A DNA stretch of 35,927 nucleotides from a virus, in the IMG/VR virus record IMGVR_UViG_3300010354_000255, positions 1 through 35,927 of that record. The stretch is one strand, 5' to 3'. Numbering within the stretch: position 1 is the stretch's first letter; each line of letters starts with the position of its first letter. Made by a program: the position numbers and the translations under genes. This document shows positions 1,422 to 29,317 of this stretch, in pieces. The notes under the pieces are model-generated. The model had not been told where the DNA came from. It saw only the letters and a program-made list of their open reading frames with translations, and did no database searches.

Positions 1422-1431
1422 TTGTAATCTG

Positions 1432-1439: not shown

Positions 1440-1463
1440 GTCTGAACTACATTGGAGTACAAA

Positions 1464-3700: not shown

Positions 3701-3702
3701 TA

Positions 3703-3716: not shown

Positions 3717-3731
3717 CATATATGGTATAAT
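3703..3731 (+). promoter_or_regulatory. Possible sigma70-type early/middle promoter of gp32
   Basis: A perfect -10 TATAAT (3726-3731) lies 36 bases before the gp32 ATG. With 17-bp spacing the -35 would be TGTACT (3703-3708), a weak match, so activation by a phage factor (middle-type) is possible. It fits gp32 needing early/middle expression independent of the late operon. The -35 overlaps the UUCG hairpin arm. Confidence 0.45.
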
Positions 3732-3766
3732 ACACTGTTCATACAACGCAATATAAGGAACACAAC

Positions 3767-10811: not shown

Positions 10812-12133
10812 TGAAGCCATATCAGTCTTCTACCGATTATATTATAAAGTCTGTGGAGGTAACAGGGGACAATGGTGTAGTAATTAATTGCGCCAACCTT
10901 ATCGCACAGTTAGAGATTTTCGAGAATCTAGAAAGACCATTCCTCACTGGCAAGATGATGATGCGGGATGATATAAATTTCTTCGATGGCATTTACTTTA
11001 ATGGAACCGAAAGATGTAAGATTCTTTTAGAGCAGCCAATATCGAATGGTGTTTCAGTTGAGTTAAATTTTATCCTTCGTAAGGTGGATGCTGTAAGAAA
11101 AACGAACGATCAAACAGAAGTAATGAGTATATCACTACTTGAGGAGAATGCGTTTAACTCTCAGTTAAGAAAGATTTCTAAATCTTTCAGTGGTTCACCT
11201 GATGAGATAATAGAAAAGCTTATGACCGAAATAGGTCAGTCAGTTGATATGCCAGCTATCAAGCCAGCTCAGTCCGGGTCTATCAAATATCTTGTCCCAT
11301 ATCTTACTGCATTCCAAGCAGCAGATACAATAAAGAATAGAACAAGTACCGAGAACGGATTACCATATTTTCTATTTAAAACGATGAGTAATAAGAATAT
11401 CCAATTTAAGTCATTAGAAGAGATGATAACTACCCCGCCGTGGAATCAGAACAAGCCATATCGATATTCGAAAGCTTTCGCCGCTCAGTCATTAAATTTG
11501 ACCCAGGAAGAAGCTTCCTATATTGTAGAGCAGTTCTCCTATGCGGCAAAAGATGATACCATGACCTTAATAGAAGCAGGCTCTGTATCAGCGGTTGTGG
11601 ATATGATCGATGTTACGAGTGGTGTAAAAGAAAGATTCAGTTATAATGCTGAAGAGATGTTTCAGAAGCTATATGACGCGAACGTATTAGAAGCAGGTTA
11701 TAATCCGGTCATTTCTTCTAGCTATGCGAATGGTGATTTAAATCTAGTCAATGCGCCAGCTAAGAATATCAGTAGAATTGTTATGAATTCTACATATAGT
11801 GATTATAAGAATCTATCCCAAGAAGAAACTGCTGGGCAATTTAAATTAGATTTTATGAGAAGAGCTTTTAAAAATCTACTCTTTAAAAATTCTATTACAA
11901 TAAGAGTCCCGGGTGTTCACTACCTACAGGGAGTGAATAGAAGTATTGGCACACAGATCGAATTCTATTATCCTAATAACAATGCTGCAGCTCTTGAAGG
12001 TTTAGGTTCTGACCGGGATCTGAAGGATCGTAAGCGCTCTGGTAAATACGTAATATATAGCGCAAGGCATTTATTCGTTGCAAATAAACATACTGTTGAT
12101 CTTACAGCAGTTAAGTTAGGGAATGAAAAGTAA
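10811..12133 (+). CDS. 27: gp27-like baseplate hub protein
   Basis: 440 aa (T4 gp27: 391). The N-terminal tube-like domain shows ENLERPFLTGKMMMRDDINF, then ILLEQPISNGVSVELNFILR and MSISLLEENAF. The middle has the segment LVPYLTAFQAADTIKNRTST, typical of hub proteins of the gp27/gpD/VgrG group. The C-terminal part contains KNLLFKNSITIRVPGVH and the barrel-like GTQIEFYYP. The trimeric hub would hold the gp5-like protein encoded next. Start and stop overlap both neighbours (TAATG). Assignment rests on order and partial motif agreement. Confidence 0.7.
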   Translation: MKPYQSSTDYIIKSVEVTGDNGVVINCANLIAQLEIFENLERPFLTGKMMMRDDINFFDGIYFNGTERCKILLEQPISNGVSVELNFILRKVDAVRKTNDQTEVMSISLLEENAFNSQLRKISKSFSGSPDEIIEKLMTEIGQSVDMPAIKPAQSGSIKYLVPYLTAFQAADTIKNRTSTENGLPYFLFKTMSNKNIQFKSLEEMITTPPWNQNKPYRYSKAFAAQSLNLTQEEASYIVEQFSYAAKDDTMTLIEAGSVSAVVDMIDVTSGVKERFSYNAEEMFQKLYDANVLEAGYNPVISSSYANGDLNLVNAPAKNISRIVMNSTYSDYKNLSQEETAGQFKLDFMRRAFKNLLFKNSITIRVPGVHYLQGVNRSIGTQIEFYYPNNNAAALEGLGSDRDLKDRKRSGKYVIYSARHLFVANKHTVDLTAVKLGNEK

Positions 12134-13149
12134 TGGATATTATTAGTAATGAATTCTACGGTGATACTACCAGATGGTTTATTGGGGTAGTAGAAGAAGT
12201 AGGAAATGACGAACCGAGATTAGGTAGGGTCCGTGTACGAATATATGGTGTACACAGTGGAAGAGGCGACATACCTACCGAGGACCTTCCTTATGCACAC
12301 ACCGTTATTCCGACAACTGAGCCTGGTGTTTCTGGCTTAGGTAGAAATCCTTATCTAGTTCCTGGCGCTACGGTTTTTGGTATTTTTCTAGATGGTAAAC
12401 TTTCCCAATTGCCTTTAGTAATTGGCTCTATACCTACAATGCAAACCCCATCCATTAATCAAATTAATGGTCAATCACAAGACGAACTCTTTAATACCGT
12501 TACAAAGGGTAGTCAGGGATTTGATATACCGGGAGTACCTGGTTCGGGCACGGGCGGGCGTACGGGAATTAAGAGTGCTCTTGTAGAAGGATTAGACAGC
12601 TATAACTATGATCCAGATGCACCAGCTGGGAGAAACGTACAACTTTCCTGGGAATATTTAGTTGGACTAAACAAATATACTCCGGTGGCCGTTGCTGGTC
12701 TTATTGGAAACTTCTTAGCTGAATCTGGAAGTGGTAGCCCGATCGATTTAAATATTACTGCACTTGGTGATGTTGGACTAAAATCAGCAGGTGATCTATC
12801 TTTTGGTATTGCACAATGGTATAACGGAACCGATCGATACAATAATCTGGAAAAATTTGCTGCAAGGAGAGGTAGATCAAAGGAAGATCTGTTCACGCAA
12901 CTTGCATTCGTTGACTATGAATTATCTACTGTTCCCTTCTTCAGAGGTGCGGAGTTAAACAATATCCCTACCCCAACCTTAGCAGCTATACATGTAAGAA
13001 GATATTACGAAATTCCTGCTTGGGACGGCAATAAGATTAGTCCAGTAGATGGTAAACGTATGAGACTTGGAGAAGCAAAAGCAATTAACTATGCAAAGAT
13101 GGTGTATAATCACTTTACCCGTAAGACTAAAGAGAGTGCTACAGTATGA
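12133..13149 (+). CDS. 5: gp5-like hub protein: OB-fold plus tail lysozyme, lacking the spike
   Basis: 338 aa (T4 gp5: 575). Residues about 12-110 are the gp5 OB fold (WFIGVVEEVGNDEPRLGRVR, VRIYGVHS, then LVPGATVFGIFLDG). A Gly/Pro-rich linker follows (FDIPGVPGSGTGGRTG). Residues about 180-330 match the phage tail lysozyme type: AVAGLIGNFLAESGSGSP with probable catalytic Glu197, and SFGIAQWYNGTDRY. It locally degrades peptidoglycan during tail penetration. The C-terminal beta-helix of T4 gp5 is absent and encoded separately two genes downstream. The stop overlaps the next start (ATGA). Confidence 0.85.
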   Translation: MDIISNEFYGDTTRWFIGVVEEVGNDEPRLGRVRVRIYGVHSGRGDIPTEDLPYAHTVIPTTEPGVSGLGRNPYLVPGATVFGIFLDGKLSQLPLVIGSIPTMQTPSINQINGQSQDELFNTVTKGSQGFDIPGVPGSGTGGRTGIKSALVEGLDSYNYDPDAPAGRNVQLSWEYLVGLNKYTPVAVAGLIGNFLAESGSGSPIDLNITALGDVGLKSAGDLSFGIAQWYNGTDRYNNLEKFAARRGRSKEDLFTQLAFVDYELSTVPFFRGAELNNIPTPTLAAIHVRRYYEIPAWDGNKISPVDGKRMRLGEAKAINYAKMVYNHFTRKTKESATV

Positions 13150-14933
13150 CAACTATCTCGACTGAAGAGTTATCTAGACAATTAAATATTCTGAATAAGG
13201 TTACCAGTTCCTTTGAGGCAAACTCTGCAATATTAAATGTTGCGGAAGGATTTAAAAGTGCTGGACAAATGTCTCTAGGTGGTATATCAGATACTATTCC
13301 AAATCTTACAGACCAAGTAAAGAATGGTATTCCTTCCGAACTATCTTCTCAGTTAACGGAAACCCTTGGCGGATTACCACAACTCAATTCACTTTTTGCC
13401 GGCAATTCCCCAGTCTTAGCTGAGCTTGGTAAATTAAAAATGCTAGAGAATTTTGGTCCGCCAAAAGGTGGGGTTCAGGCTCTTATGAAGTCTGCTGATG
13501 ATCCAATCGATGAGCTCGATGCGAATTTTAGACCTGTATTAGCTAAAGTTGATGAATCTATGTCAGATCTAATACCAGATTTGAAGACAGAAATTTCTGG
13601 AGCTGATCTTGCAAATATGGATAAGATATTTTCGAATGAGAATATTACCATATCTTCGATATATGATAAAGGCACACCAATGTTAGAGAATAATTCTGCA
13701 GTTACAAAAGATGTATATTCTGATGGATCTGTAGAAGCAATCGGGGGTGAACTGAAAAGAATCACCGGAAAAGATTTCAAACAATTAAACCCGGTCTTGG
13801 ATAAATTAGGCCCAGTAGATTCTACACAGCCAATCGAAGAAATATTAGAGAAGAAAGAATCTAAACAATTCCAGAACCTGATGAAGACTAGCATTACGAA
13901 GCTTGAAACTGATTTAAATAAATCTCTATCCCAACTAACAAGTGGTGGATCCGTAAAAGGGGTTGCTGAAAATCTTACAAATAACATTGCGACCACTCTT
14001 CGTGGGCTTGGTATACCTGGTGCTGATTCGTCCCAGATTAAGAACCTTATACTTGCCGGGAAAACCGAAGAAGCAATCAATGAGATTCTCAAGAAAATAC
14101 CAGTTCCTGATAGTATCGAGCAGCTACTTGGTACTGTGATAATTACGGACAGATTCTCATATTATTATATAGTACAAGAAGGGAAGCGTCTGGCAAGCAC
14201 ACCAGAACAGATTGCGGATGTAAACGAATTCGAAAGAAAAGGTGAAGCGGTTATAAATGCTATCACTCCTGAATTAGGTAAGCTTTCTGGCACCGTGACC
14301 ACTGCTACTAACCAAACCCCTTCGAATCCCAATCCGGTTAAGAATTCGAATAAATTCCAAACTGCGCAAACATTAAATTCTGAAGAAGAGATTGTAAAGC
14401 TTCTCCAAGCTGTAAACAGAGAAATTACTTCAATTAAAATTATTCCAGGAAAACTCGGTTCTTCTTGGTCTTCTGCCACAGCAAGTGAATACGCTGAAGC
14501 GGTGTTCAGTACATATCAAGGGACTTTATCAGGTCTTGAGAATGATGGTCCAGCGCATTTCTTTGTAAGATCTGATGGTACCATTGAGACTATGAGAGAT
14601 TTAAACAAACCGGCAATCCAGTCTGGAGACATTACTGGAAACGAATACCTAGTTGAGATAATCTATAATAATGCCGGCGGTAAAACTACTATTTCACAAA
14701 ATGCTTCTCTGAAAAAGATAGTCGGTGCTTTTTACAAATATGTTCCTGTCGGTGAAGTTTATACAAGTTCAAATAATTCATTTGATGCGACCCAATGGAT
14801 TAAAACGAATTTTAATAAAACCAATGTACAAGATCCTACCCAAAGTCAAAAATATCTAAGTAAAGAAGAGTTAATTCAATTTAAGAATGAAACCTCTGAA
14901 AATACAAATAGAGAAATTAAGGATAACAATTAA
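13146..14933 (+). CDS. Hub/spike-associated protein with degenerate amidase (PGRP-like) domain
   Basis: 595 aa. Residues 1-340 are helical and low in cysteine, with repeated short Leu/Gly segments (MSLGGISDTIPNLTDQ, LGIPGADSSQIKNLIL). Residues about 427-545 follow the amidase_2/PGRP fold order: ITSIKIIPG strand, helix (ATASEYAEAVF), PAHFFVRSDGTIETMRDL, GNEYLVEIIYN, then the SQNASLKKIVGAFYKYV helix. Only H471 is at a family position; the usual first His (IHHTA) and last His/Cys are replaced, so zinc catalysis is doubtful and binding of peptidoglycan or a structural role is more likely. Location between lysozyme and spike genes supports a hub role. Stop and next start overlap (TAATG). Confidence 0.6.
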   Translation: MTTISTEELSRQLNILNKVTSSFEANSAILNVAEGFKSAGQMSLGGISDTIPNLTDQVKNGIPSELSSQLTETLGGLPQLNSLFAGNSPVLAELGKLKMLENFGPPKGGVQALMKSADDPIDELDANFRPVLAKVDESMSDLIPDLKTEISGADLANMDKIFSNENITISSIYDKGTPMLENNSAVTKDVYSDGSVEAIGGELKRITGKDFKQLNPVLDKLGPVDSTQPIEEILEKKESKQFQNLMKTSITKLETDLNKSLSQLTSGGSVKGVAENLTNNIATTLRGLGIPGADSSQIKNLILAGKTEEAINEILKKIPVPDSIEQLLGTVIITDRFSYYYIVQEGKRLASTPEQIADVNEFERKGEAVINAITPELGKLSGTVTTATNQTPSNPNPVKNSNKFQTAQTLNSEEEIVKLLQAVNREITSIKIIPGKLGSSWSSATASEYAEAVFSTYQGTLSGLENDGPAHFFVRSDGTIETMRDLNKPAIQSGDITGNEYLVEIIYNNAGGKTTISQNASLKKIVGAFYKYVPVGEVYTSSNNSFDATQWIKTNFNKTNVQDPTQSQKYLSKEELIQFKNETSENTNREIKDNN

Positions 14934-17449
14934 TGATTGAAGATCTTGATCCCCCAGTAAATCCACCGAGTATACCAAGTGGAGGTTACGATGATCCTAG
15001 AGGTGAATACCCACACCGAAAATACTGGAATTCCCCATCGCTGAATAAAGAAGTAACCGGGGAAGAAAAAACCTCCGTTGAGGTCGGTGGTGGGGATGTT
15101 GGTATTGATGCATTCGGGGAGATTGATGACGAAATCCCATCAGAATATGGTAGGATACAAGTCCAGGAAACACCAGGTGGTCATAAGATCATTATGGATG
15201 ATACACCAGGCGGGGAAAGATTAATACTTAAACATAGAACTGGTGCAGGTATTTCTATGGCTGCAAATGGTTCTGTGAATATACGATCTACTAATAATAT
15301 GGTAATATCGATTGATGCAAATGGTGGTATTATCGTAGAAGGTAATTTAAATATCTCCTCGAAGAATCTAAAGGTCGATGTTACAGGCGACTTGGATTTA
15401 AATATTACTGGGGATTGGAATACAACAGTTGCTGGTAATAAGAACGAAACTGTCTACGGTCACCATAGAACAAGCGTAAGTGGTAATATGAGTGAAACCG
15501 TGTCTGGTAGTAAATCAGAGACAGTGGTTCAATCTCAGACGAATACTATCCTTGGAACATGCACCGATGTTGTAAAAGGCGATAGAAGAAATACTACAGG
15601 CGGTAACCTATTCCAATCTACTGGTGGTAATTTCAAAGGATCTGCGCAAGGTGAATACACTGTGGCAGCTCCTAGCATGAATATGTCAGCAGCTGATATG
15701 ACAATCATTGGTGCTGGTGGAACTATCGGTGGCGAGAATATTATTATGTACAACTATAACATGTATGCTGGCCATAGTGTATATGCTGGTGATACGGTTA
15801 ATACTAGAACCTTAAATTCCACAAGAGTGAATACAACATCTGCCCACGGTTACTTTATCGGTGATCTAAATGGCTGTGCAAAGCAAGCCGATGACCCTGG
15901 AACATTTAGTGCTGGAACAACTGCAGCTAATATCGCAGATGATACAAGAGCTAGCTATAAGCCAGACGCTGATTTAATGGGTAAGATTCTTTCGTATAGT
16001 ACTCGTGGTATCAATGAAGTGTCGATTGATGCTGGAGATTATATTAAGAATAAGATAGACCGTACTGCAGTCATGGGTGGCATTGCAAATCGTAAGCTAA
16101 CCCCAGAAGAAGCTCGAATGAAGCTAAAAGATAATATTAACTCCTCTAACGAAGACTTTATAGCTTCATTAGTGGCCGATGGATCTGTAAGTGAAACTTA
16201 TTTCTCTAGCAAAGTACCTCCAGCAGTAGGAAGATCTTACTCAGGTTCGGGGTCAGTATCGTTTGCTCCTACGGGCGATTATGACTATGCATCTTCATCT
16301 GGCGCAAACAAATATATCACTGGTACTCGGGATTTTCTAGGATTCAGTCCAGACCCACAGTACAATCCACAGGATGCAGATCCAAGAAAAGGCCCATTAT
16401 CAATCGATGGTAAAACATTAGTTGGTAACGGTATACCAATCTCAACCTTCTTAGGTTCAAAGGGCGGATCAACAAATCTTGCTCATTTAGTTACTCTAGA
16501 AGAAAGACAAGCACTGGCAAGACAGTTACTTCTGCAAGCCGAAGTTCTTAAGATTGCTAAACAGAACCAGCATCAATTTAGAAGATTCAGAGCTGTTGTT
16601 GCAGAAGGTGTTTATAAAAAAGCTTCGGGTGAAACATTAGAATCTGAATCAGTAACTGCTTTAGCCCAAACTGGTAGAGCGATTACTTACGAATTATACG
16701 ATGCGAATAACAAATCCTATAATGAAGTAACCTACGAATTTGCAGAATATCTTGCAGAATATCTAACAGGTTATGATAAGATTATACTTTCATATGATAC
16801 ACTGGACCCAAGAAGCAGTTCAATGCAAAGTCAAGTAACAGTGATTATGCCAGAGGTAGATCAATACTTTAAGATTGTAGGAAAGTCTAAACCAGACTTC
16901 GGTCTAAAAACAATATACAACGGTAAGAGCCTATCTGAAACTGATCTGGTAGAAGTAGATCCGTATGGTAACGTAGTTGACGAAGACCAGTTAGCAACCG
17001 CTCAGGAAGCTGCTGGTATTGTTGAGTATCAGCTCGGTAGTATTCGAAACAAGAAAGTTAAACCGGCTCTTGAAATAATCCTAGCTTCAGCCGCAAGAAG
17101 AGCAAAGATTGATAAAGTAGTGATCACTTCTGGACTGCAACCCGGCTACTCCGGTCGTAGAACTGGTAGTACAAGACACGACACCGGCTTGGCAGCAGAT
17201 CTATATCTCATCTCAAATGGATCTGTAGTAACATTAGACACTACTCGTGGTAGAGAAATCATCTCTAGCTTTGTAAGAGAAGCTGTAAATCTTGGTGTAA
17301 GAGGTGGTGGAATGAGCTCAGGATATATGGGTAATAGAGTGATGCACCTTGACCTACTTGGACAAGATGCCGGCGGTGGAAGATATAATCCTGATGTTAA
17401 GGTTGTTTGGAAGAGTGATTCTTGGTTTAGCTCAGCTTTTTATGCTTAA
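14933..17449 (+). CDS. Baseplate spike: beta-helix with C-terminal M15-like peptidase
   Basis: 838 aa. Residues about 75-120 (GGHKIIMDDTPGGERLILKH) and 125-300 are the gp5C/VgrG-type triple-stranded beta-helix, with the repeating pattern VTGDLDLNITGDWNTTVAGN then NETVYGHH and GNMSETVSGS. The middle is mixed alpha/beta. Residues about 725-830 match M15/VanX-like peptidases: ITSGLQPGYSGRR, STRHDTGLAADLYL and VMHLDLLG, giving probable zinc ligands H749, D756 and H805. The spike would pierce the outer membrane and cut peptide cross-links. It is the last gene of the hub operon, and the next gene has its own late promoter. Confidence 0.75.
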   Translation: MIEDLDPPVNPPSIPSGGYDDPRGEYPHRKYWNSPSLNKEVTGEEKTSVEVGGGDVGIDAFGEIDDEIPSEYGRIQVQETPGGHKIIMDDTPGGERLILKHRTGAGISMAANGSVNIRSTNNMVISIDANGGIIVEGNLNISSKNLKVDVTGDLDLNITGDWNTTVAGNKNETVYGHHRTSVSGNMSETVSGSKSETVVQSQTNTILGTCTDVVKGDRRNTTGGNLFQSTGGNFKGSAQGEYTVAAPSMNMSAADMTIIGAGGTIGGENIIMYNYNMYAGHSVYAGDTVNTRTLNSTRVNTTSAHGYFIGDLNGCAKQADDPGTFSAGTTAANIADDTRASYKPDADLMGKILSYSTRGINEVSIDAGDYIKNKIDRTAVMGGIANRKLTPEEARMKLKDNINSSNEDFIASLVADGSVSETYFSSKVPPAVGRSYSGSGSVSFAPTGDYDYASSSGANKYITGTRDFLGFSPDPQYNPQDADPRKGPLSIDGKTLVGNGIPISTFLGSKGGSTNLAHLVTLEERQALARQLLLQAEVLKIAKQNQHQFRRFRAVVAEGVYKKASGETLESESVTALAQTGRAITYELYDANNKSYNEVTYEFAEYLAEYLTGYDKIILSYDTLDPRSSSMQSQVTVIMPEVDQYFKIVGKSKPDFGLKTIYNGKSLSETDLVEVDPYGNVVDEDQLATAQEAAGIVEYQLGSIRNKKVKPALEIILASAARRAKIDKVVITSGLQPGYSGRRTGSTRHDTGLAADLYLISNGSVVTLDTTRGREIISSFVREAVNLGVRGGGMSSGYMGNRVMHLDLLGQDAGGGRYNPDVKVVWKSDSWFSSAFYA

Positions 17450-17930: not shown

Positions 17931-19757
17931 ATGGCTACAACTATTAAATCAACAGCTCTTGATTTTGATAACATCAAAGAAGCCTTAAAAGATTATTTTA
18001 AATCCACAGATGAATTTGCTGATTACGATTTTGCGGCATCTGGATTAAATAACCTGATGGACGTTTTAGCTTATAACACCCATCTAAATGGATTAATAGC
18101 AAACTTTACCCTCAACGAATCTTTCCTGGGCACTGCTCAATTAAGATCATCACTTGTATCACTCGCTACAGGTATTGGGTATATCCCAGATACTAAAACA
18201 GCTTCTCGCGCGATCATCCGCGTGCGTGCGAACTTATCAGCTGTTACCTCTCGACCTTCAGTTATTTCTTTACCGAAGTATACTAGATTCACAGCTACTT
18301 TAGATGATGTATCCTATACATTCCAGACAATCGAAAACTATGATGCAGAAGATAATGGTTCAGGTATCTATTACTTTAAGACTGATACAGGCAGTGAAGA
18401 AATTCCTATCTACGAAGGATCTGTAAGAACAAAGACCTTCTTGGTTGGCGAATACAGTGAAAATGACGTTTATATTATACCTGACGTAAACCTTGATGCT
18501 GATACAGTAGAAGTAAACGTTTACGAATCCCCGTCAGCTAGTGAATTTACAGCCTATCAGAATATTATTGATACGGTTTCTGTAAATGAAAATTCTACAC
18601 TTTATATTCTAAAAGAATCTCCGAATGGTTTCTACCAACTTTCTTTTGGTGCAAATGATATCCTCGGACGGGCGCCGCGCGCGGGAAATGCTATTCAGGT
18701 GAAATACCTTTCAACGAAAGGTGCTGTAGCTGATGGTATTACTTTATTCACTCCACAGGATACAATAGTAGTAGACGGTTCTAATCGTAGCCTTCTTATC
18801 TCTACTATATCACCTTCAGCAGGTGGTGATGAGAAAGAAACAATAGAATCTATTCGTCGTAATGCACCATTCCAATATGCTACCCAGAATAGAATGGTTA
18901 CCCCAGAAGATTATACATCGATTATACTTCGTAACTTCTCTACTCTAATAAAAGATATAAAATCCTGGGGTGGAGAAGATAATCCCAAGCCGAAATTTGG
19001 CACAGTTTTTTCTTCCATTCTTTTTAAGGATGATGTTTCTACGGCACAAATACAATCCGTAAAAAACCAGATAGCTGATCTAGTTGATCAACTTGCTATT
19101 GTTTCATTTAATGTGGAATTTGCAGATCCAGTAGAAACATTCGTAGAAACTTCGGTATTCTTCCAGGTTAACCCTAGACTTACTCCTCTTTCTTTAAACA
19201 CAATTAAAACAGAAGTAAGATCTGTTATTTCGAATTATTTTGATAACACCATTGGTAATTTCGATCAATCATTCAGAAGATCGAATCTTTTAACTCTGGT
19301 TGACGATGTTAGCCCAGCTGTTCTATCTTCTCGTGCTGATGTGAAAATACAGCAAAGAATAACCCCAGTACTGAATTCTAGAAATACTTTTACATTAACC
19401 TTCCCAGCTGATCTTCGAGCACCTGATGACGAATTACCAGTAATTACCAGTAGCACATTTGTTGTTAATAATACACCATCTATCATTCGTAATAAACTTT
19501 CTAGCACTATTTTACAGGTAGTTGCTGTTGGTACAAATGAGATTGTAGTTGATAATATAGGCTCATACGATCCGATTGCTAAATCTGTTCAGATTGTTTC
19601 TTTAAAACCAAGCGGTATTTCCGGGGCGGCAAATTATATTAAAATCTCTGCAGTTCCGGCAAACCAGTCTTTTGTTACTCCTACTTTAAATGATATCCTA
19701 AAATATGATGCCGAAGCTTCTTCAGTACAACCAGTAATTACAACGGCGATTAGCTAA
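17931..19757 (+). CDS. 6: gp6 baseplate wedge protein
   Basis: 608 aa (T4 gp6: 660). It has the baseplate-J-like core: FADYDFAASGLNNLMDVLAY, NTHLNGLIANFTLNESFL, the beta domain LPKYTRFTATLDDVSYTF, and later ETIESIRRNAPFQYATQNRM then VTPEDYTSIILRNF. The DILGRAPRAGNAIQV segment is also typical. gp6 dimers form the inner ring of the baseplate and trigger sheath contraction. The C-terminal 100 residues are beta-rich. It overlaps the next start (TAATGG). Short GC-rich patches around 18200-18230 and 18661-18690 stand out in an AT-rich gene. Confidence 0.88.
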   Translation: MATTIKSTALDFDNIKEALKDYFKSTDEFADYDFAASGLNNLMDVLAYNTHLNGLIANFTLNESFLGTAQLRSSLVSLATGIGYIPDTKTASRAIIRVRANLSAVTSRPSVISLPKYTRFTATLDDVSYTFQTIENYDAEDNGSGIYYFKTDTGSEEIPIYEGSVRTKTFLVGEYSENDVYIIPDVNLDADTVEVNVYESPSASEFTAYQNIIDTVSVNENSTLYILKESPNGFYQLSFGANDILGRAPRAGNAIQVKYLSTKGAVADGITLFTPQDTIVVDGSNRSLLISTISPSAGGDEKETIESIRRNAPFQYATQNRMVTPEDYTSIILRNFSTLIKDIKSWGGEDNPKPKFGTVFSSILFKDDVSTAQIQSVKNQIADLVDQLAIVSFNVEFADPVETFVETSVFFQVNPRLTPLSLNTIKTEVRSVISNYFDNTIGNFDQSFRRSNLLTLVDDVSPAVLSSRADVKIQQRITPVLNSRNTFTLTFPADLRAPDDELPVITSSTFVVNNTPSIIRNKLSSTILQVVAVGTNEIVVDNIGSYDPIAKSVQIVSLKPSGISGAANYIKISAVPANQSFVTPTLNDILKYDAEASSVQPVITTAIS

Positions 19758-20777: not shown

Positions 20778-21854
20778 ATGTCAAGACAACATATTAACGT
20801 TGGCACTAATGCGAATGATGGAACCGGTGATACACTCAGAACCACCGGTCAGAAGATCAACTCTAACTTCGTTGAGCTATACAGAGTGCTCGGCGGGGAT
20901 TCAGATCTTTTATCCAGCACTGTTCTTCTTGGTCCGAACCAGATTACATTCGAAGGTCTTTCATTTAATAACTTTGAAACAGTATTAACTACAATTGAAC
21001 CTACCAAAGATAATCTTATCACTTTTCCCGATTCAACTGGTGAGGTTATTTTAACTACAGCTGACCAAGAGCTTTATAATAAGCATCTTTATAATACAAA
21101 GATTGATGGAAATTTAAGATTACACGGGGTATCTGGTACTGGATATTACCTAATTAAATATAAAGGTGTAGTTGATTCTGATTCTGATCTTAATGTTAAT
21201 ATCCCGAATCTATTAGACAGCGATACTTTAGTATTTCAAAAACATACCCAAACCCTTACAAATAAAACCCTGACATCCCCTACCATCAATAACCCTAGAA
21301 TCGGAACAACAGTTCTTGATATAGCAGGGAATACTATATTAGCTTTACCTACTACTGCATCAGCTGTGAATCACATTGAAATATCTGCTGCTACTACCGG
21401 TAATAAACCGACTATTAATACACTTGGAACAGATACGAATATTGATCTAATGATCTCAGCAAAGGGAACGGGCGTAATCGAATTAGACGATCCTCTCCGT
21501 CTTGCACGTAGTAATTATTCAACTAACTCTACCATTTCGTTACAGGATAATATCGCACTGTTCAGTGGAACTTCTGGAACAAATACTTTCAAACTTCCGA
21601 GAGGAACTGGAAGAAACAACGTTCCGATGCTCTTTGTGAATGCCGGCGGTTCTGTTGCAACTGTGAGTGTAGATTCTAACGGTTCTGGAACTACCTGGTT
21701 TGGTCATACAGGATACAAAAATTTTACACTGAGAGCAAAAGCCTCTATCATGGGCATCTACAGTACTGAAACTTCAGGTGGGGCTACTGAAGGTTGGTAT
21801 TTAATTGGACTGGACTCTGCTCGTGGTCTAGGTAATAGAGTCATTCTATCTTAA
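20778..21854 (+). CDS. Tail fibre-like / baseplate-attached structural protein
   Basis: 358 aa. The start HINVGTNANDGTGDTLRTTG and QKINSNFVELY is a recurrent N-terminal module of T4-like marine phage fibre proteins, probably a baseplate docking region. It is followed by the fibre motif LTNKTLTSPTINNPRIGTT, beta-repeat sequence, and a C-terminal beta domain (MLFVNAGGSVATVSVDSNGS, GWYLIGLDSARG). It likely forms a trimeric short fibre or a fibre connector. It lies between wedge genes gp6 and gp8, a place consistent with baseplate attachment. No chaperone domain is seen. Confidence 0.65.
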   Translation: MSRQHINVGTNANDGTGDTLRTTGQKINSNFVELYRVLGGDSDLLSSTVLLGPNQITFEGLSFNNFETVLTTIEPTKDNLITFPDSTGEVILTTADQELYNKHLYNTKIDGNLRLHGVSGTGYYLIKYKGVVDSDSDLNVNIPNLLDSDTLVFQKHTQTLTNKTLTSPTINNPRIGTTVLDIAGNTILALPTTASAVNHIEISAATTGNKPTINTLGTDTNIDLMISAKGTGVIELDDPLRLARSNYSTNSTISLQDNIALFSGTSGTNTFKLPRGTGRNNVPMLFVNAGGSVATVSVDSNGSGTTWFGHTGYKNFTLRAKASIMGIYSTETSGGATEGWYLIGLDSARGLGNRVILS

Positions 21855-21865: not shown

Positions 21866-23266
21866 ATGGTTGCTATAATCACAGACGCAATTAAAAGACA
21901 GTTTATTCAAGAAATTTATGATGATCTATCAGACTCTGCAGCGTCTAGATATTATGTAGCCGTTGCTAAATCTGAAGATTGGAACGACTCTGATATACCA
22001 GTCAATCCTGCAAATACCGATAGAGAAGCCAGAAACTTCAGACTTGGTATGCAGGCTATAAAGCGTATTACCGATTACTCATTTACAGTTCCTAGATATA
22101 ACTGGTCTTTCGGTACTACCTATTCAGCATATAACGATAATACTTCAGGATATCCTACTATCCCATATTACGTTTTAACCGAAGATAATGCTGTTTATAT
22201 CTGTCTAAAGCAGGCAAAAACAGATGGTGGTATTGCTCAACCTTCTACGACTAAACCAACAGGAACCTTAACAAGAGAATATACAGCAGCTGATGGTTAT
22301 GTCTGGAAATTCCTTTATACCATTGGTACATTATCAGCTACAAAATTTCTAACTGCTAACTATATGCCAGTTCAGAAAATCCTTACAACTGACTCTGACT
22401 CATTAGCGGTAGAGATTGAACAGAAAACTATACAAGATGCTGCGATTCCAGGTCAGGTAATTGGACTTCGAATCGTGAATGGGGGCGCTGGTTACGATGA
22501 TGCACCTGTTCCTACTATTACTATTGTTGGAAATGGTACTGCTGCTCAGGGCTTAACTTGGGTTACTGGTGGGGTAATTACTAAAGTAGAAATGGATGAA
22601 TCAGACGGCGAGATAATTGCTGGATCTGGATATAGTTGGGCTGAAGCTGTTATATCAGGTGGATCACCTACCACTGCTGCTAGTGTATTACCTATCCTCA
22701 GTCCAAAGAATGGATTTGGTGCAGATCCACGTATTGACCTAAAAGCAACCGCAATTATGTTTAACGTTATTCCTGATAGTGATGAGAACGGTGAATGGGT
22801 TATCGGTAACTCATTCCGTCAACTTGGCATTCTTAAAAATCCTAAAGTAGGTGATATAAGCAGCGATTCAGACTATATTGCTGCTGCGGGTAATACCTTA
22901 AGAGGTTTACAATTTGCTTCAGTCTCGACTGCATTTACAGTAGGTTCTACAATCCAAGGCGCAACGTCTTCTGCAAAGGCACTGGTAGATAAAATCAGCG
23001 GAACAGGAAGTAGCACTATAATCTACTATCACCAATCAGAAGCTACTGGCTTTACCCAATTCCAAGAAGCAGAAGCTATTACAGAACTAAACGGTCTACC
23101 TGGAAGTGGTATTCTAAAAGCTGGTGCTTTTGATGCTGATTCTAGGGCTTATGACTATCCATCTGCAGATCCTTTCTCTGGTGAATTACTCTATATAGAT
23201 AACAGAGCAAAGATTGATCGCGATGAAGGTCAAGCAGAAGACATTAAAATAATCATTCAGTTATAA
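21866..23266 (+). CDS. 8: gp8-like baseplate wedge protein
   Basis: 466 aa (T4 gp8: 334). The N-terminal 200 residues match the gp8 family: AASRYYVAVAKSEDWNDSD, NFRLGMQAIKRITDYSFTV, PRYNWSFGTTYSAYND, AVYICLKQAK and DGYVWKFLYTIGTLSATKFL. The remaining 250 residues are beta-rich with a repeated GGAGYDDAPVPTITIVGNG type element and an SGTGSSTIIYYHQ strand, an expansion compared with T4. gp8 bridges inner and outer baseplate parts. Shine-Dalgarno AAGGAAAA at 21853-21860. Confidence 0.8.
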   Translation: MVAIITDAIKRQFIQEIYDDLSDSAASRYYVAVAKSEDWNDSDIPVNPANTDREARNFRLGMQAIKRITDYSFTVPRYNWSFGTTYSAYNDNTSGYPTIPYYVLTEDNAVYICLKQAKTDGGIAQPSTTKPTGTLTREYTAADGYVWKFLYTIGTLSATKFLTANYMPVQKILTTDSDSLAVEIEQKTIQDAAIPGQVIGLRIVNGGAGYDDAPVPTITIVGNGTAAQGLTWVTGGVITKVEMDESDGEIIAGSGYSWAEAVISGGSPTTAASVLPILSPKNGFGADPRIDLKATAIMFNVIPDSDENGEWVIGNSFRQLGILKNPKVGDISSDSDYIAAAGNTLRGLQFASVSTAFTVGSTIQGATSSAKALVDKISGTGSSTIIYYHQSEATGFTQFQEAEAITELNGLPGSGILKAGAFDADSRAYDYPSADPFSGELLYIDNRAKIDRDEGQAEDIKIIIQL

Positions 23267-23275: not shown

Positions 23276-26200
23276 ATGGTAAGTCAGGTAATTAAAGACA
23301 GTTTCCTAAACATCTATAAGGATGATTATAGGGACAGTGACAACTATTATAAAATCCTATTTAATAATGGTAGAGCGCTGCAACAGCGAGAACTTAACCA
23401 GATGCAGACTATTCTCAATAAGGATATAAAATCCTTTGCTGGATATATTCTCGATCCTGGTGCTGCTACAGAAGGCGGTGCGATTGCTGTACTAAAAGTT
23501 CCATTTATTAGATTAAATCTAGTTTCTAACCCACTACCTGCTAGTCCTACATCAATTGAAAATGTCGTGTTTGAAGAAACCTCTACTGGTATTCAATTCC
23601 GAGTAGAGAAAGTTACTGCTGCTACTGGTATCATATATGTGACTTATGTTGACCAAGCCGGAGAAGTAGTTACTGATACTGCAATATCAATCACAAATAC
23701 AAATAGTACTTTAGTGGCTCAAGATGGATCTGGGGTTACTCTTTCTACCTCTGCAACAAATACGCTAGTTTCTCCTATGACAGGGGAAGGTCTTCTGTGT
23801 ATTCAGAATCCAGGTAGATTCTATGTTGATGAGCATTTCATTTATAGCCCAAGACAAATTATTATTCTTTCCGCTACAAGCTCGAATGCTGATGTCGTAG
23901 TAGGTCATAAAGTTTCCGAATCAATCGTAACAGTAAACGATAATGAAGACCTGTATGACAACTCTGGTGCAACCTTAAACATCTCAGCGCCAGGTGCAGA
24001 TAGATATAAAATTACTCTAGAACTTACTACTCAAGATTTAGTAGATTCATCTGATTATTTCATCCCGCAAATTAAAGTTGCCGATGGTAAAGTTCTCAGT
24101 GATAAAAATGCTGGGGCTAGCGGATTAAAAGCTACAGAAGATTTCCTTGCTATTCGTCTAAGAGAAATCCATGGTAACTTTACCCAACAGAATTTTATTA
24201 TTACTTTCGAAGATGACCCAAATAACGCTGACGCTTTTAAAGTAATTATTAACCCAGGTAAGGCTTATGTTGGCGGTCACAGAGTTCATTTAAGAGAACG
24301 TCTGGTCCTTACAGAAGCTCGTCCTAGAACTACCCAGGTTATTAATAACGAAACAACAACCGTAACTTACGGTAACTATGTTGTCGTAAGCGGTATGCAA
24401 AGTCTATTCGATGTCGGGTCTTTCGAGAAGGTAAACATCAAGCAGAGCGGAACTACTATTGGTACAGCTTATGTTAGAGCCATTGAAGAATTTGGCAGCA
24501 ATTATAAGATTTACCTATTTGAAGTTAAAATGAATGCTGGTAAAAACTTTTCATCAGCTACCTCTATTCAAGATTCTACAGGAAATGCAGCAACTATTGT
24601 CTTAGAGAACGGTGTTGCTAGACTTTACGGCCAAGAAGATAGAAATCTACTCTTCGGATTAAACCGTATTCGTCCAAAAAGTTTCTCGGATATTGTATTT
24701 ACTACCCAGAAACATTTTGCAGCTCAAACCGCAGCTAGCAACCAAATCACAGTTTTAGCTGGTACAGGTAAAGCATTTGATGACACTGGTTCCTGGGTAA
24801 TCGTTAACGAAACAACTAATGCAGTAGTAACTGGAACCATTACACTCTCAGGTGGTGGTAGTACTGCCGTTATTAGTGGTTTAACAAACGGGGAAGATTA
24901 TGCAGTACATGCCTATGTTCAGCATTCAGGTACTTCAGGATCAGTAAAAACCAAAACATTAACAAATAGAACAGATTCAGCTAAATCAGTAACTGGTGGC
25001 GTAGTAACATTAACTCAGCCTGACGTATACTCTATCACATCGGTAATCGATGATACAACAAGTGCCGATATCACAAGTAATTTCAAGTTCTATAATGGTC
25101 AAACAGATAACTATTATGATTACGGAACACTAACATTAAAAGGTGGTGCACCTACACCTGCTAGCACAGTAACCGTAACTTATCAATATTTTGCATGGGG
25201 CACTTCGGGGGACTTTTTTGCGGCATCGAGTTATACAGGAACTATCGATTACGAAGATATTCCAGCCTTTAGACTGAATAATGGTAATACTGTTGAGTTA
25301 AGAGAAGTATTAGACTTTAGACCAAAAAGATCAGGATCGTCCTTTAGTGGTGTTGCTCTTCCTAGAAACGGTGACTTAATTACTATGGATGTAGAATACT
25401 ATCTTCCAGTCAGAGGTAGAATATTCATAACACGTGATGAAGTATTTGGGGTTTATTTCGGCGATCCGGCCTTTGATCCTAAGTTGAGAGATTTAGGAAA
25501 TGATCTTGATACTATGGAAATCGCGAACTTCTATGCTAATCCTTACATGCTTAATACAGGGGATTTAGTTCTTAACTATACCCAGAATAAGCGATATACT
25601 ATGAAAGAAATCTCTAACATCGATGAAAGATTAAAAGAACTAAAAGAATTCACTACTCTTTCGTTGTTAGAACTCGGAGCAGTAAATAAGAATGTTCTTG
25701 ATGCCGAAGGATTCAGTAGACTAAAAACAGGCATTACAGCTGACAACTTTAAAGACCACTTCCAGACCGATACGGCTGATGAAGAACACAAAGCTGCTAT
25801 GGACTTCATTGAAGGGGTGGTTAGACCAATGACAACCCAGAACTCAATCGATTTAGTTTTCGATTCTGATCTATCCAGCGGTGTTGTAAAGGTAGGCGAT
25901 ATAATTATACTTGATTATGATGAAGAGGTTTGGAAGAACCAATCTTCAGTTTCTAGATCTATCCCTCTAGATGATACTATATTGAAGAAATATCAAGGGG
26001 CTATTACAATGTCTCCTGGTAGTGATAACTGGATGGATACTAAAACTCTTCCTGATAAAGTAATTACAGGTAACCCAAGAATTGAGCCTGCTATAAATAA
26101 AACCCACAACTATAACTCCGTGAGTTGGCAGGGTATTAAAGCAGAAGATCTAGCAAACGTACAAAACGGAACTGTGGTAGCCACTGGTACTTCAACCTCG

Positions 26201-27661
26201 AATACTACTTCAACCGGTGGGGTAACAACTAGCAAAACTGTAAAAGTAAAGGGGGGTACAAATACTACCACTACTACTACGGCTAAGATAGAAACAACTG
26301 TTACTAAAACCCCGGTTTATAAACTCGAGGGAAGTACTTATCTTTCGGAATCCCTGGGTGAGTTTGTTCGCGCAAGACTCTCTATTCCTTATATGAGATC
26401 CAGATTCGTATCCTTTAAAGCGACTGGCTTAAGACCAAATACTCGTCACTTCGCATTCTTTGGTTCGACAGCGGTAGATGATTGGGTATACGCAGCAACT
26501 GGCCCAAGTGAATTCACAAGAGCTTCTGATCTTTCTAGAACTAGTGATTTTAGAAAGATAGGTCGAGAACTTTCTAACTTTACTCAGTATCCTTTTGATG
26601 GTGGACCAACCCAAATTGTGACCGACGCAAACGGTACAGTATCAGGTTGGTTCTTGATCCCAAATACAAGTAGTATTCGATTTAAAACTGGAAGAGTTAC
26701 TTTTAGATTACTTGATATCAGTATATTAAGTGATGTAGGTGCAACATCTACAGCAAGTTTTGTCTATGAAGCAAATGGTACTTTAGAGCAAGTTCAAGAA
26801 GAAGTGCTTTCTACTAGAGTATATCAGATTTCTACGGCTATTGATACCGATACTTCTACAAAAGTTATTCCTGAAAGATCGAATACAGTCTTTACCCCAA
26901 ACCCAGTACCACCAAAGGTAGAAAGAGAATCCTGCTTCGTAAAAGGTACGAAGGTTAAGATGTTTGATGGCTCGGAGAAGAACATTGAAGATGTAGAAAT
27001 CTTTGATATGCTGATGGGTCAAATCGGACCAAATATGGTACTATCTTATGACCACTGGCCTCTAGCTGGTAGAGACCTAATTGGCATTAATGGATCTGGA
27101 CCTTTCAAAACTCCTGAACATCCTCTGATGACAAGAGAAGGTTGGAAAGCATATGATAGTGAACTTACTCAAATCCAAAAACCAGAGATTGCCCATCTAA
27201 TGGTAAACGGCAGTTTAAAAATTGGCGATGAAATTTTAATGGAAGATGGCACTTGGGTAAGAATAGAATCTCTTGAAGTTTATCCAAATGAACCAGAACA
27301 GGTAGTTTATAACTTCTATCTAAACGGGGATAACACTTATTATGCTAACGGTATGCTAGCACATAATAGATGTGCTAATCCTCCGGGAAATCCTAGCTGT
27401 AATGGTGGTCCGGGGTCGACCAGCGGACCAGGATGGAGCGGAAGCGACATTCGACTGAAATCTGATATCCGATATCTTTACGATATTGAAGATATTAAGG
27501 TATACTCATTCAAATATCTATGGGATAGCGTTACTAAGCACATTGGTGTAATGGCTCAAGACCTGATAGGTACTAAATATGATAATGCTATAGCTACTGA
27601 TGAAAATGGATATTATAAAGTCGACTATAATCAACTTCCGAATATACCTGGTAGAGATTAA
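23276..27661 (+). CDS. DUF4815 tail protein with C-terminal Hint domain and S74 chaperone
   Basis: 1461 aa. The N-terminus (YYKILFNNGRALQQRELNQM, QTILNKDIKSFAG) is the DUF4815 baseplate/fibre module; it continues as beta-rich domains to about residue 1200. Residues 1220-1364 form a Hint domain: C1220 (CFVKGTKVKMFDGSEKNIED), block B T1279-P-E-H1282, and the ending YYANGMLAHN with N1364. The +1 residue is Arg, not Cys/Ser/Thr, so splicing is unlikely but cleavage is possible. After a Gly/Pro/Cys linker, residues about 1389-1461 match a Peptidase_S74 chaperone (S1390-DIRLKSDI, YSFKYLWDS, HIGVMAQDLIGT, YKVDYNQLP), which folds fibres and then self-cleaves before the Ser. Shine-Dalgarno TAAGGA at 23264-23269. 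Confidence 0.82.
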   Translation: MVSQVIKDSFLNIYKDDYRDSDNYYKILFNNGRALQQRELNQMQTILNKDIKSFAGYILDPGAATEGGAIAVLKVPFIRLNLVSNPLPASPTSIENVVFEETSTGIQFRVEKVTAATGIIYVTYVDQAGEVVTDTAISITNTNSTLVAQDGSGVTLSTSATNTLVSPMTGEGLLCIQNPGRFYVDEHFIYSPRQIIILSATSSNADVVVGHKVSESIVTVNDNEDLYDNSGATLNISAPGADRYKITLELTTQDLVDSSDYFIPQIKVADGKVLSDKNAGASGLKATEDFLAIRLREIHGNFTQQNFIITFEDDPNNADAFKVIINPGKAYVGGHRVHLRERLVLTEARPRTTQVINNETTTVTYGNYVVVSGMQSLFDVGSFEKVNIKQSGTTIGTAYVRAIEEFGSNYKIYLFEVKMNAGKNFSSATSIQDSTGNAATIVLENGVARLYGQEDRNLLFGLNRIRPKSFSDIVFTTQKHFAAQTAASNQITVLAGTGKAFDDTGSWVIVNETTNAVVTGTITLSGGGSTAVISGLTNGEDYAVHAYVQHSGTSGSVKTKTLTNRTDSAKSVTGGVVTLTQPDVYSITSVIDDTTSADITSNFKFYNGQTDNYYDYGTLTLKGGAPTPASTVTVTYQYFAWGTSGDFFAASSYTGTIDYEDIPAFRLNNGNTVELREVLDFRPKRSGSSFSGVALPRNGDLITMDVEYYLPVRGRIFITRDEVFGVYFGDPAFDPKLRDLGNDLDTMEIANFYANPYMLNTGDLVLNYTQNKRYTMKEISNIDERLKELKEFTTLSLLELGAVNKNVLDAEGFSRLKTGITADNFKDHFQTDTADEEHKAAMDFIEGVVRPMTTQNSIDLVFDSDLSSGVVKVGDIIILDYDEEVWKNQSSVSRSIPLDDTILKKYQGAITMSPGSDNWMDTKTLPDKVITGNPRIEPAINKTHNYNSVSWQGIKAEDLANVQNGTVVATGTSTSNTTSTGGVTTSKTVKVKGGTNTTTTTTAKIETTVTKTPVYKLEGSTYLSESLGEFVRARLSIPYMRSRFVSFKATGLRPNTRHFAFFGSTAVDDWVYAATGPSEFTRASDLSRTSDFRKIGRELSNFTQYPFDGGPTQIVTDANGTVSGWFLIPNTSSIRFKTGRVTFRLLDISILSDVGATSTASFVYEANGTLEQVQEEVLSTRVYQISTAIDTDTSTKVIPERSNTVFTPNPVPPKVERESCFVKGTKVKMFDGSEKNIEDVEIFDMLMGQIGPNMVLSYDHWPLAGRDLIGINGSGPFKTPEHPLMTREGWKAYDSELTQIQKPEIAHLMVNGSLKIGDEILMEDGTWVRIESLEVYPNEPEQVVYNFYLNGDNTYYANGMLAHNRCANPPGNPSCNGGPGSTSGPGWSGSDIRLKSDIRYLYDIEDIKVYSFKYLWDSVTKHIGVMAQDLIGTKYDNAIATDENGYYKVDYNQLPNIPGRD

Positions 27662-27680: not shown

Positions 27681-27688
27681 TATAAATA
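27681..27688 (+). promoter_or_regulatory. T4-type late promoter
   Basis: Exact TATAAATA in a 54-base gap, 27 bases before the ATG at 27716; a Shine-Dalgarno (AGGGAA) follows. It would drive the fibre cluster. Confidence 0.78.
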
Positions 27689-27715
27689 ACAAGATAAGTT
27701 TATTAGGGAATTTCC

Positions 27716-29317
27716 ATGAGTGAATCAAAACACGTAAGTCCGATGTTTCAGACATTTTATGTCGAAAACAAATTCGGGGTTTATATTACAAAAATCGGAT
27801 TATTTTTCAGAACAAAATCTGACAAAGATGGTGTCAGAATTAATATCCGTGACTCATTTAAGGCCGGTCAATTAAGTCCGAACACCTTGGATATTATTCC
27901 TGGGACAGACGTATTTAAATCCGCTTCTGAAATTACTGTTTCAGAAAATGCTTCAGCAGAAACAATTTTTGAATTCGAAGAGCCTATTTATCTTTTCCCT
28001 GATAAATTCTATGCAATTGCAATTATTACAAATGATGGGGTCGGCTATGAAATTTGGTCTGCTACCGTTGGTGATTTTAACCTCGGTACCACCACTTCTA
28101 GAGTTTCTCAAGATCCTGACACGGGGGTATTATTCCGGGCCGCTGGCGGTTTAGCTAAAATCCCAGAAGGTATTACTGATCTAAAATATAAAATTTATAG
28201 AGCCAAGTTTAAATCTACTGGTGGTACAGTTGTATTAAAAGATGCTAATCCATCGAGACAATTACTCGAGACTAATCCGTTCCTTACCGATAGCGCTTCA
28301 GCTGTTGTTCGTGTATATCACCCAGATCACGGTTTCCAAATAAACGATAAAGTGCATATCACGGGATTAACTGCTGGAACTTCTTATAATGGTATCACAG
28401 GTGCTCAGATGCTTGGCACTAGAACGGTTACCCAAATAGACGCTACCGGATATAAATTCACTGCGGGAGGTACTGCTTCTTCAAGTGGAAGAGTTGGTGG
28501 CGCGGCAGTGAAAGTAACAGAGCAATATGTATTCGATTTACTAACACCTACTATCGATCATTACATTCCAAGAAACGTCGCAAAGGTAACTTATAGCGGG
28601 CAGTTTTGTACTTCTACCTCTTTTGCAGCAGACTCTGATGATGAACAAAGATATGCAACCACTTCTAATATTGCATTAATTCCTAGTCAGACCATTACTT
28701 TTGAACAGCCTCATGTTATTCTCCAGGATTCGAACGAGACAGTACATTTTGGCGGAAACGAATCTACCAGAATTACTGCTACTTTGACTAACCTAACCAC
28801 AAACGACTATATTTCACCTTACATTGATATGCAGCGTGCTAGTCTCGTGGTTATGAACAACTTAATCGATAGACAGGATTCTGCTGCTTCAGTTGGATTT
28901 AGTACTCCGATAGATTTCGTTCCTGAAACTAATCCTTCTGGTGGTACCGAACTTGCTAAACATATTACCAAGCCAGTTGTTTTAGAAAACCCAGCGAATG
29001 GTCTAAAGATCAACTTCGGTGCTCATACCCCAATCGGTGGGCAGATTGATACGTACTATAGAATTACTAAAGTTGGTACTGATTCTGATATTCAATTGAA
29101 GAATTGGATTTATATTGATTATGACGAAACCCCTATTACCGACAAAGATCCGAACGTCTTTAGAGAATATGAAGCAAATCTCGGTGGTGAATATTATGAC
29201 CAGCTAGATCACTTCGATCAATATCAACTTAAACTTGTTATGAGGTCACAATCATCTTCTAGAGTTCCTAAGATTCAAGATCTAAGAACTATTGCTCTTG
29301 GTGTGGATTCAGCATGA
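27716..29317 (+). CDS. Baseplate/fibre structural protein
   Basis: 533 aa. The N-terminus SPMFQTFYVENKFGVYITKI, then FRTKSDKDGVRINIRDS, is a lectin-like beta sandwich (about residues 1-160) common in T4-like marine phage tail proteins. Residues about 195-265 hold the common tail module HGFQINDKVHITGLTAGTSY with NGITGAQM and YKFTAGGTASS. The C-terminal 200 residues are another beta domain. It likely links baseplate and fibre (a gp10-like role by position, not by clear sequence match). Its stop overlaps the next start (ATGA). Confidence 0.65.
   Translation: MSESKHVSPMFQTFYVENKFGVYITKIGLFFRTKSDKDGVRINIRDSFKAGQLSPNTLDIIPGTDVFKSASEITVSENASAETIFEFEEPIYLFPDKFYAIAIITNDGVGYEIWSATVGDFNLGTTTSRVSQDPDTGVLFRAAGGLAKIPEGITDLKYKIYRAKFKSTGGTVVLKDANPSRQLLETNPFLTDSASAVVRVYHPDHGFQINDKVHITGLTAGTSYNGITGAQMLGTRTVTQIDATGYKFTAGGTASSSGRVGGAAVKVTEQYVFDLLTPTIDHYIPRNVAKVTYSGQFCTSTSFAADSDDEQRYATTSNIALIPSQTITFEQPHVILQDSNETVHFGGNESTRITATLTNLTTNDYISPYIDMQRASLVVMNNLIDRQDSAASVGFSTPIDFVPETNPSGGTELAKHITKPVVLENPANGLKINFGAHTPIGGQIDTYYRITKVGTDSDIQLKNWIYIDYDETPITDKDPNVFREYEANLGGEYYDQLDHFDQYQLKLVMRSQSSSRVPKIQDLRTIALGVDSA

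Follow-up and report, generated by a model that had tools for sequence, protein, structure and literature searches.

A putative A-type bacterial intein-like domain as an exchangeable cassette at the split of a baseplate protein gene in an uncultured marine phage

Introduction

A-type bacterial intein-like (BIL) domains end in His-Asn (HN) without a nucleophile at the following (+1) position, and passages of one report describe cleavage as their dominant activity, with ligation through thioester aminolysis also possible (PMC4031507). Excerpts from two papers agree that BIL domains yield mainly cleavage products and that a nucleophile at +1 can turn them into efficient splicing domains (PMC4031507, PMC7664689), whereas a passage of an opposing review regards A-type BILs as unable to ligate (PMC7765530). 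Besides, the BIL2 domain of Tetrahymena BUBL1 makes an isopeptide bond with a lysine side chain, according to a portion of a further article (PMC8616854). BIL domains have long been without a clear role, and here we describe a Hint domain resembling them that is located at one exact position of a well-defined virion protein, encoded in a stretch of 35,927 nucleotides that is the whole record of an uncultured virus (IMG/VR record IMGVR_UViG_3300010354_000255; hereafter the window). Among the open-licence papers listed, none reports DUF4815/VrlC proteins with a BIL or Hint domain.

Sequence comparisons and a predicted model lead us to consider it somewhat probable that an A-type BIL domain serves as an exchangeable cassette for forming protein ends and removes itself from the N-terminal half of this marine phage's split baseplate protein. 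Self-processing would be the most likely function of the Hint domain.

Results

The open reading frame (ORF) at 23276-27661 encodes a DUF4815 protein of 1461 amino acids, and the Hint domain extends from Cys1220 to Asn1364 (26933..27367, plus strand, as are all features below), the codon of Cys1220 opening at 26933 and the stop codon ending at 27661. Translation reproduced exactly the residues on which the original prediction had relied, namely Cys1220, the block-B motif T1279-P-E-H1282, the ending A1362-H1363-N1364, Arg1365 at +1 (27368..27370), a linker with two cysteines and the S-D-I-R-L-K of an S74 domain. Pfam profiles matched below their curated cut-offs, Hom_end_hint with an E-value of 2.5e-6 at residues 1220-1251 (28.1 against 32.1 bits) and Intein_splicing with 0.033 at 1282-1364, while NCBIfam gave no match and a match to phrog_6121 over the end of the Hint may reflect the short S74 domain alone. 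The predicted model of residues 1184-1461, in turn, had a predicted local distance difference test score (pLDDT) above 90 across most of 1220-1364, and its top solved fold was BIL2 of Tetrahymena (Foldseek E-value 2e-10; VIA-align Z 19.9, root mean square deviation 2.0 over 142 residues), followed by the gp41-1 intein and the BIL domain of C. thermocellum (Z 16.4 each). A Hint profile of 17 rows found the C. thermocellum BIL (1.6e-9) and BIL2 (3.8e-7), with PI-SceI entries in between. The Hint assignment is thus independent of Pfam, since the fold model, the structural match to BIL domains and the profile match all support it, and the Hint fold originally proposed for residues 1220-1364 is borne out.

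Fold and profile establish the superfamily, and the absent +1 nucleophile points to a BIL domain over an intein. The Hint fold, Cys1, the C-terminal His-Asn and a +1 residue other than Cys, Ser or Thr agree with the A-type BIL definition, while the variable region in a non-conserved protein that is expected of BILs is here a variable junction of an otherwise conserved virion protein. Among the features of Class 1 inteins, Cys1, the block-B TxxH and the terminal HN are present, the Cys, Ser or Thr at +1 is replaced by Arg1365, and the two host parts lie in one frame in 18 related contigs and not in the window.

Conservation was assessed on 74 distinct full-length Hints (distinct when 12 downstream residues are included; truncated and degenerate ones excluded), collected with search patterns that contained the block-B His and neither Cys1, HN nor the +1 residue. 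Cys1, the block-B His and HN were each found in 38/38 Hints of DUF4815 proteins, with Arg at +1 in 22 and Lys in 16; at the level of the domain these are 36 different sequences, which form 27 clusters at 90% identity (17 Arg, 10 Lys). The 36 Hints of other proteins have Cys1 in 36, the block-B pattern in 33 and HN in 35, followed by Lys (30), Arg (2), Asn (1), Thr (1) or Cys (1), and the +1 residue is therefore basic in 70 of the 73 distinct HN-bearing Hints. The Thr and the Cys at +1 come from a single ATPase-like protein of Vibrio phage 13VV501A (L012, 2149-4659; related loci are designated by L and a number), whose two Hints look like ordinary inteins and offer a natural contrast to the tail-protein Hints with a basic +1 residue. 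Moreover, the ratio of nonsynonymous to synonymous divergence (dN/dS) of the Hint after the split was 0.059, 0.070 and 0.186 in three pairs of the window clade (three further pairs, all with L016, were saturated), and that of S74 alone was 0.078, 0.087 and 0.094 in three pairs. Both the Hint and S74 stay under purifying selection after the split.

The DUF4815/VrlC protein is encoded in the window by two genes, of 1461 and 533 amino acids, with the break just before a conserved DPxxQ motif. Residues 1-1194 of the first gene (23276..26857) form the N-part, confirming its annotation as a DUF4815 protein (Pfam 1.1e-44; phrog_358 6.6e-202), and the N-part profile stops there. The next gene (27716..29317), overlooked in the original prediction, is the C-terminal part of the same family; phrog_877 is matched up to position 777 by the first ORF and at 781-944 by the second, and phrog_358 is likewise divided, the second ORF covering 1765-2054. 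These N- and C-part matches place both genes in the DUF4815/VrlC family. Both parts lie in one coding sequence in phages C48C1, pf16 and Mosig and in eight further isolates, and on a single chain in the solved DUF4815 protein (ORF65, PDB 9euf). All 12 Hint-free phage isolates examined are unbroken at this junction, the twelfth being Xanthomonas phage X1, which is split elsewhere. The DUF4815 genes of X1 (L102) and L056 are split at other places, and the protein thus tolerates several chain breaks. A sequencing artefact or frameshift at the break of the window was rejected, since the same break occurs in other contigs and the C-part gene has its own ribosome-binding-site-like AGGGA (27705..27709) and a TATAAATA box. 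The reading frame is real, because the same Hint-S74 frame occurs in four other IMG/VR contigs, with one protein identical and three N-proteins 94.9% identical.

Scanned with profiles, IMG/VR yielded 22 and 57 Hint loci and the bacterial genomes 17, with contigs overlapping between scans. In 18 contigs a homologous Hint and the C-part share a single ORF, the Hint standing at the same junction, and four of these contigs have tandem Hints; the contig of L025 starts just before its first Hint and its N-part lies outside. HN is followed in the unsplit relatives by Arg or Lys and then, directly or past a short linker, by the DPLAQ-type start of the C-part, while the N-part of Hint-free proteins leads straight into this motif. 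The basic +1 residue belongs to the Hint module, since several relatives have linkers between it and DPLAQ.

A sample chosen independently of the Hint was obtained with two N-part probes (A5 and A6) from Hint-bearing proteins, keeping the best 80 of 99 and the best 80 of 94 relatives, respectively. Its 160 loci, counted with near-copies, comprised 109 fused without Hint, 4 fused with Hint, 19 split with Hint and 16 split without Hint, and in the remaining 12 the contig ends before the junction (probe A5: 56, 4, 2, 10 and 8; probe A6: 53, 0, 17, 6 and 4, in the same order). Thus, 35 of the 148 readable junctions were split, 16 of them without a Hint, and grouping into 97 k-mer clusters gave 66 fused without and 4 with Hint, 11 split with and 11 without, and 5 unreadable. 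These fractions are not those of all phages, because the probes came from Hint-bearing proteins and the best-ranked relatives were kept. In two of the 19 split loci with Hint (L134 and L139), the only Hint is degenerate and lacks the HN end. The split N-proteins end in Gly-rich sequence only, in a Hint with a short two-Cys tail, in two or three Hint-like units, in an ICTALY-type C-terminal domain with or without Hint, or in S74 without Hint (L283), and among the sampled loci a tail of Hint plus S74 occurs in the window clade only. This variety argues that the junction is a hot spot for breaks and exchangeable end modules, and the existence of split genes without Hint indicates that a break is tolerated there.

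Several further arrangements were observed among these relatives. The split N-proteins of L204, L205 and L207 carry three consecutive units, Hints or Hint-like, and then a tail with GASMLGSVLCLKKP. The recurring C-terminal domain that starts from ICTALYNLGYL or similar is present, with or without Hint, in L073, L211, L126, L143, L245 and L032, is more diverged in L126, L143 and L245, and matched no Pfam family in the three tested (L073, L211 and L032). Degenerate Hint-like units that keep Cys1 and have no HN end, such as YDYKGIKVSGSH and NRRLLIEGITFTDYFE, occur in L134, L136 and L139 and as later units of L065, L058, L061 and L063; we presume that they recall B-type BIL domains. L031 has a DUF4815 gene without Hint (178-5616) and, downstream, an ORF of 304 amino acids (7542-8453) that ends in a family Hint (HNRE, stop).

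The history of the Hint differs from that of the proteins that carry it. Some proteins have Hints 53-66% identical to that of the window although their N-parts reach only 25-38%, whereas the N-parts closest outside the window clade (L065-L073, 39-43%) have Hints only 36-42% identical to that of the window. Hint presence on the N-part tree requires four changes, and a single clade of Hint bearers was rejected by the N-part data (p 0.001). The window clade groups with L065-L073 in the N-part tree (starred), from which L019 and L056 were left out as incomplete, and with L019-L022 in the Hint tree (93/86, not starred); the N-part data reject the grouping of the Hint tree (p 6e-64), the groups having been picked after the trees had been seen. 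Synonymous divergence was compared in 17 pairs and tested in eight, with synonymous sites approximated as 0.72 per codon in the tests. It was lower in the Hint than in the flanks in six of the eight (L042/L044, L024/L027, L066/L067, L020/L022, L071/L073 and L067/L069), for example L042/L044, where the synonymous proportion (pS) is 0.041 in the Hint and 0.42-0.43 in both flanks (Fisher test, 6e-18). The other nine pairs, among them L046/L047, L028/L029 and L026/L029, were near-identical, saturated or without clear contrast.

Some results weigh against such movement: the Hint data reject the N-part grouping only moderately (approximately unbiased test, p 0.023); one tested pair (L021/L022) showed no difference between Hint and flanks; another (L042/L050) had a Hint more diverged than the flanks, which exchange would fit too; and a sharp border on the left side of the exchanged stretch is unproven, the linker there being hypervariable. 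Overall, these comparisons indicate that the Hint has moved between these genes, apparently as an exchangeable cassette that repeatedly entered this junction. Translation and Pfam revealed no endonuclease inside the Hint. Four endonuclease families were sought in the surrounding, fragmentary records, where HNH_3 and GIY-YIG were found in 0/26 and LAGLIDADG_3 in 0/19, and HNH exceeded the cut-off in 2/19, both at least 31 kb from the Hint. Ordinary recombination within a shared cassette may suffice, because no endonuclease of these four families lies beside the Hint.

The Hint is followed in the window by a Gly/Pro linker with Cys1366 and Cys1375 (27371..27442) and a short S74-type domain that reaches the C-terminus (27443..27658). 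The original claim of a real S74 domain holds, as shown by its dN/dS and by a Pfam match to Peptidase_S74 at residues 1390-1431 (3.5e-7; 30.9 bits against a cut-off of 22). The S-D-x-R-x-K motif is intact, and we take its S1390 and K1395 to be the Ser-Lys dyad known from work on endosialidases and MYRF. Long S74 domains have a C-terminal helical trimerisation region that lies outside the Pfam profile; alignments showed that the C-terminal extension of the long forms (L044 and L059) is missing from the window, and short forms are common among the best 80 of 150 S74 relatives. A search of the PDB with linker and S74 found no S74 relative. Linker and S74 together gave dN/dS values of 0.09, 0.21 and 0.26 in pairs of the window clade, higher than S74 alone, and the linker is thus the varying stretch.

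Among the same best 80 of 150 relatives, a Hint shares its ORF with S74 only in the four loci of the window clade. The same Hint is found in relatives without S74, within unbroken proteins or at their ends, and short two-Cys tails also follow the Hint in several other split-gene relatives. Conversely, the split N-protein of L283 carries S74 without any Hint, and in L303 S74 stands on the DUF4815 N-protein at another break. S74 therefore looks like a second, optional end module, separate from the Hint and under its own selection. In the small proteins of L280-L282 and L284, a short S74 domain is immediately preceded by a Cys-rich repeat (CICNSDCACNLVC or similar).

Between the N-part and the Hint lies a linker (residues 1195-1219, ending in ERES; 26858..26932), and the corresponding place is hypervariable in several pairs of relatives. 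The TATAAATA box (27681..27688) stands between both genes, 27 bases before the ATG of the C-part gene, and we liken it to a T4-type late promoter motif. Five of the seven matches of this type are placed 18-32 bases before an ORF start, and their number is not above chance, being reached in 17 of 100 shuffles. The setting of the 1461-amino-acid ORF is a baseplate gene cluster, as judged by Pfam and PHROG matches upstream to a wedge protein (17931-19757; phrog_219), a gp9/10-like protein (20778-21854; Pfam T4_gp9_10_N) and a second wedge protein (21866-23266; phrog_438, with Pfam Gp8 slightly below its cut-off). The gp5-like baseplate hub/lysozyme is apparently split too (12133-13149, 13146-14933 and 14933-17449), its first and last ORFs matching different parts of phrog_430 (15-112 and 332-556) and the 595-amino-acid ORF between them having no PHROG match. 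Positions 9000-33000 of the window had no megablast match among phage isolates.

Discussion

The ORF at 23276-27661 encodes the N-half of a baseplate protein of the T4 type (DUF4815/VrlC) whose gene is split in two, with a putative A-type BIL domain and then a short S74 module at the split. We infer cleavage and its order, the fate of the thioester, any ligation and the activity of S74 as follows. Cys1220 would convert the Ser1219-Cys1220 bond to a thioester, and Asn1364, aided by His1363, would cyclise and cut before Arg1365. Both the BIL domain and the piece made of linker and S74 would come off and the N-half would be released via hydrolysis or via transfer to an amine, its mature form ending at Ser1219. 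Because the residues for both half-reactions are invariant and persist after the split, the domain probably cleaves itself at either end and sets the N-half free. In unsplit relatives this domain would separate the N- and C-parts by cutting or, less often, join them by splicing, and gene fission and self-cleavage would thus be two routes to a two-chain protein. The two-step self-processing originally envisaged keeps its Hint, whose catalytic residues are intact at both termini, and its genuine S74 domain, and loses the special link between the two.

Some observations speak against self-cleavage by a BIL domain. Fold alone does not separate BIL domains from inteins, as the C. thermocellum BIL and the gp41-1 intein score equally (Z 16.4 each), and a C-terminal cleavage that is slow or absent would agree with Arg at +1. 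In the wider family, certain Hints have HNK as their very end, so that a C-terminal cut would release a single Lys, and the conserved Asn may thus serve another purpose, such as ligation. Moreover, the S74 stretch of the predicted model has low confidence, and the model of the unsplit junction of L042 has a mean pLDDT of 49.

Among the alternatives, a splicing BIL survives best, although we consider it improbable. The Hint would be removed and its flanks ligated by aminolysis, giving N-half-Arg-Cys-linker-S74 in the window and a continuous N-Arg-DPLAQ in unsplit relatives. The statement in the original prediction that ligation needs Cys, Ser or Thr at +1 does not apply to A-type BILs, which can ligate by aminolysis according to passages of PMC4031507, a view contradicted in a passage of the review PMC7765530. 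The in-frame HNR-DPLAQ of unsplit relatives, the HN retained in the wider family even at the extreme C-terminus and the purifying selection on an S74 that would be retained all agree with splicing. However, cleavage products dominate in the BILs studied, as far as excerpts of PMC4031507 and PMC7664689 describe them, and the Hint is selected in split genes where no C-part remains to be joined in cis. A splicing intein as the main job of the domain was rejected as the leading reading, given the basic +1 residue and the Hint kept after the split.

Attachment to a partner through the thioester was another option in the original prediction, and it is rather unlikely that a partner amine attacks the Cys1220 thioester and thereby ties the N-half covalently to a different component of the virion or the surface. 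Such a transfer would be in line with the nearest solved fold, BIL2 of Tetrahymena BUBL1 (Z 19.9), which makes an isopeptide bond to Lys according to part of PMC8616854, and with a Cys1 that is invariant even where almost nothing comes after HN. Structural likeness to BIL2, however, shows no shared chemistry, the partner or acceptor is only hypothetical, and the separate C-parts start with MSES, MSDS, MVTT, MAY or MAGN, none with a Cys after Met. A broader proposal, equally tentative, is that HN-[Lys/Arg] Hints are a distinct auto-processing class across phage tail proteins, an endonuclease-free cassette repeatedly landing at one fission-prone junction, whose thioester would join the N-half to a virion amine with the basic +1 residue as part of the chemistry.

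The release of S74 as a chaperone, in which S74 would drive trimerisation before Hint and S74 cleave, was one purpose given to the Hint by the original prediction, and we find it quite unlikely. The intact S-D-x-R-x-K motif, the Pfam match above the cut-off, the low dN/dS of S74 and the S74 modules at the ends of split N-proteins (window clade, L283 and L303) favour a functional S74. The Hint, however, exists in relatives without S74 and S74 exists without Hint in L283; the window S74 has no long C-terminal extension, though short forms are common, and the trimer is hypothetical. S74 as the reason for the Hint was rejected, since the two occur apart. A degenerate intein or plain structural domain would be consistent with the lack of a homing endonuclease and of Cys, Ser or Thr at +1 and is highly improbable given Cys1 and HN in 38/38 and the strong purifying selection.

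If self-cleavage by the BIL domain is true, a baseplate protein would mature by cutting itself and gene fission would repeatedly yield the same end, while a true thioester transfer would mean that phages form enzyme-free covalent bonds in their tails. Related phages provide natural controls at a precise site, since some lack the Hint, others carry it in an unbroken chain or after the gene has been split, some have it in tandem and some show the split alone, and the function of the Hint is therefore directly testable. Besides, short active Hints with a basic +1 residue could serve as protein-ligation tools.

Comparison with known systems places this locus near several of them. DUF4815/VrlC proteins (PDB 9euf ORF65; C48C1, pf16 and Mosig) have a homologous N-part and DPxxQ C-part and are single-chain elsewhere, while the window has two genes with Hint-S74 at the break. 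Peptidase_S74 chaperones share the Pfam match and the S-D-x-R-x-K at the domain start; unlike their long forms, the window S74 is short, lacks the C-terminal extension, stands behind a Hint and is optional in relatives. In fractured genes with split inteins the host gene is broken at an intein-like element, as in the window, whose Hint, in contrast, is whole and confined to the first gene. Class 1 mini-inteins have in common with the window Hint the fold (gp41-1), Cys1, the block-B TxxH, the terminal HN, the same insertion point in related genes and horizontal spread, but the DUF4815 Hints have Arg or Lys at +1 and no endonuclease, and that of the window persists after the split of its host gene, where splicing restores nothing in cis. 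The closest likeness is to A-type BILs (nearest solved structures Tetrahymena BUBL1 BIL2, PDB 6y75 and 6tmm, and C. thermocellum, PDB 2lwy), which have the same fold (Z 19.9 and 16.4), Cys1, the C-terminal His-Asn and no Cys, Ser or Thr at +1. Unlike other A-type BILs, the window-type Hint has a constant position within a phage baseplate protein, at one junction, and the DUF4815 Hints are basic at +1 in 38/38, are found in tandem and are exchanged between phages.

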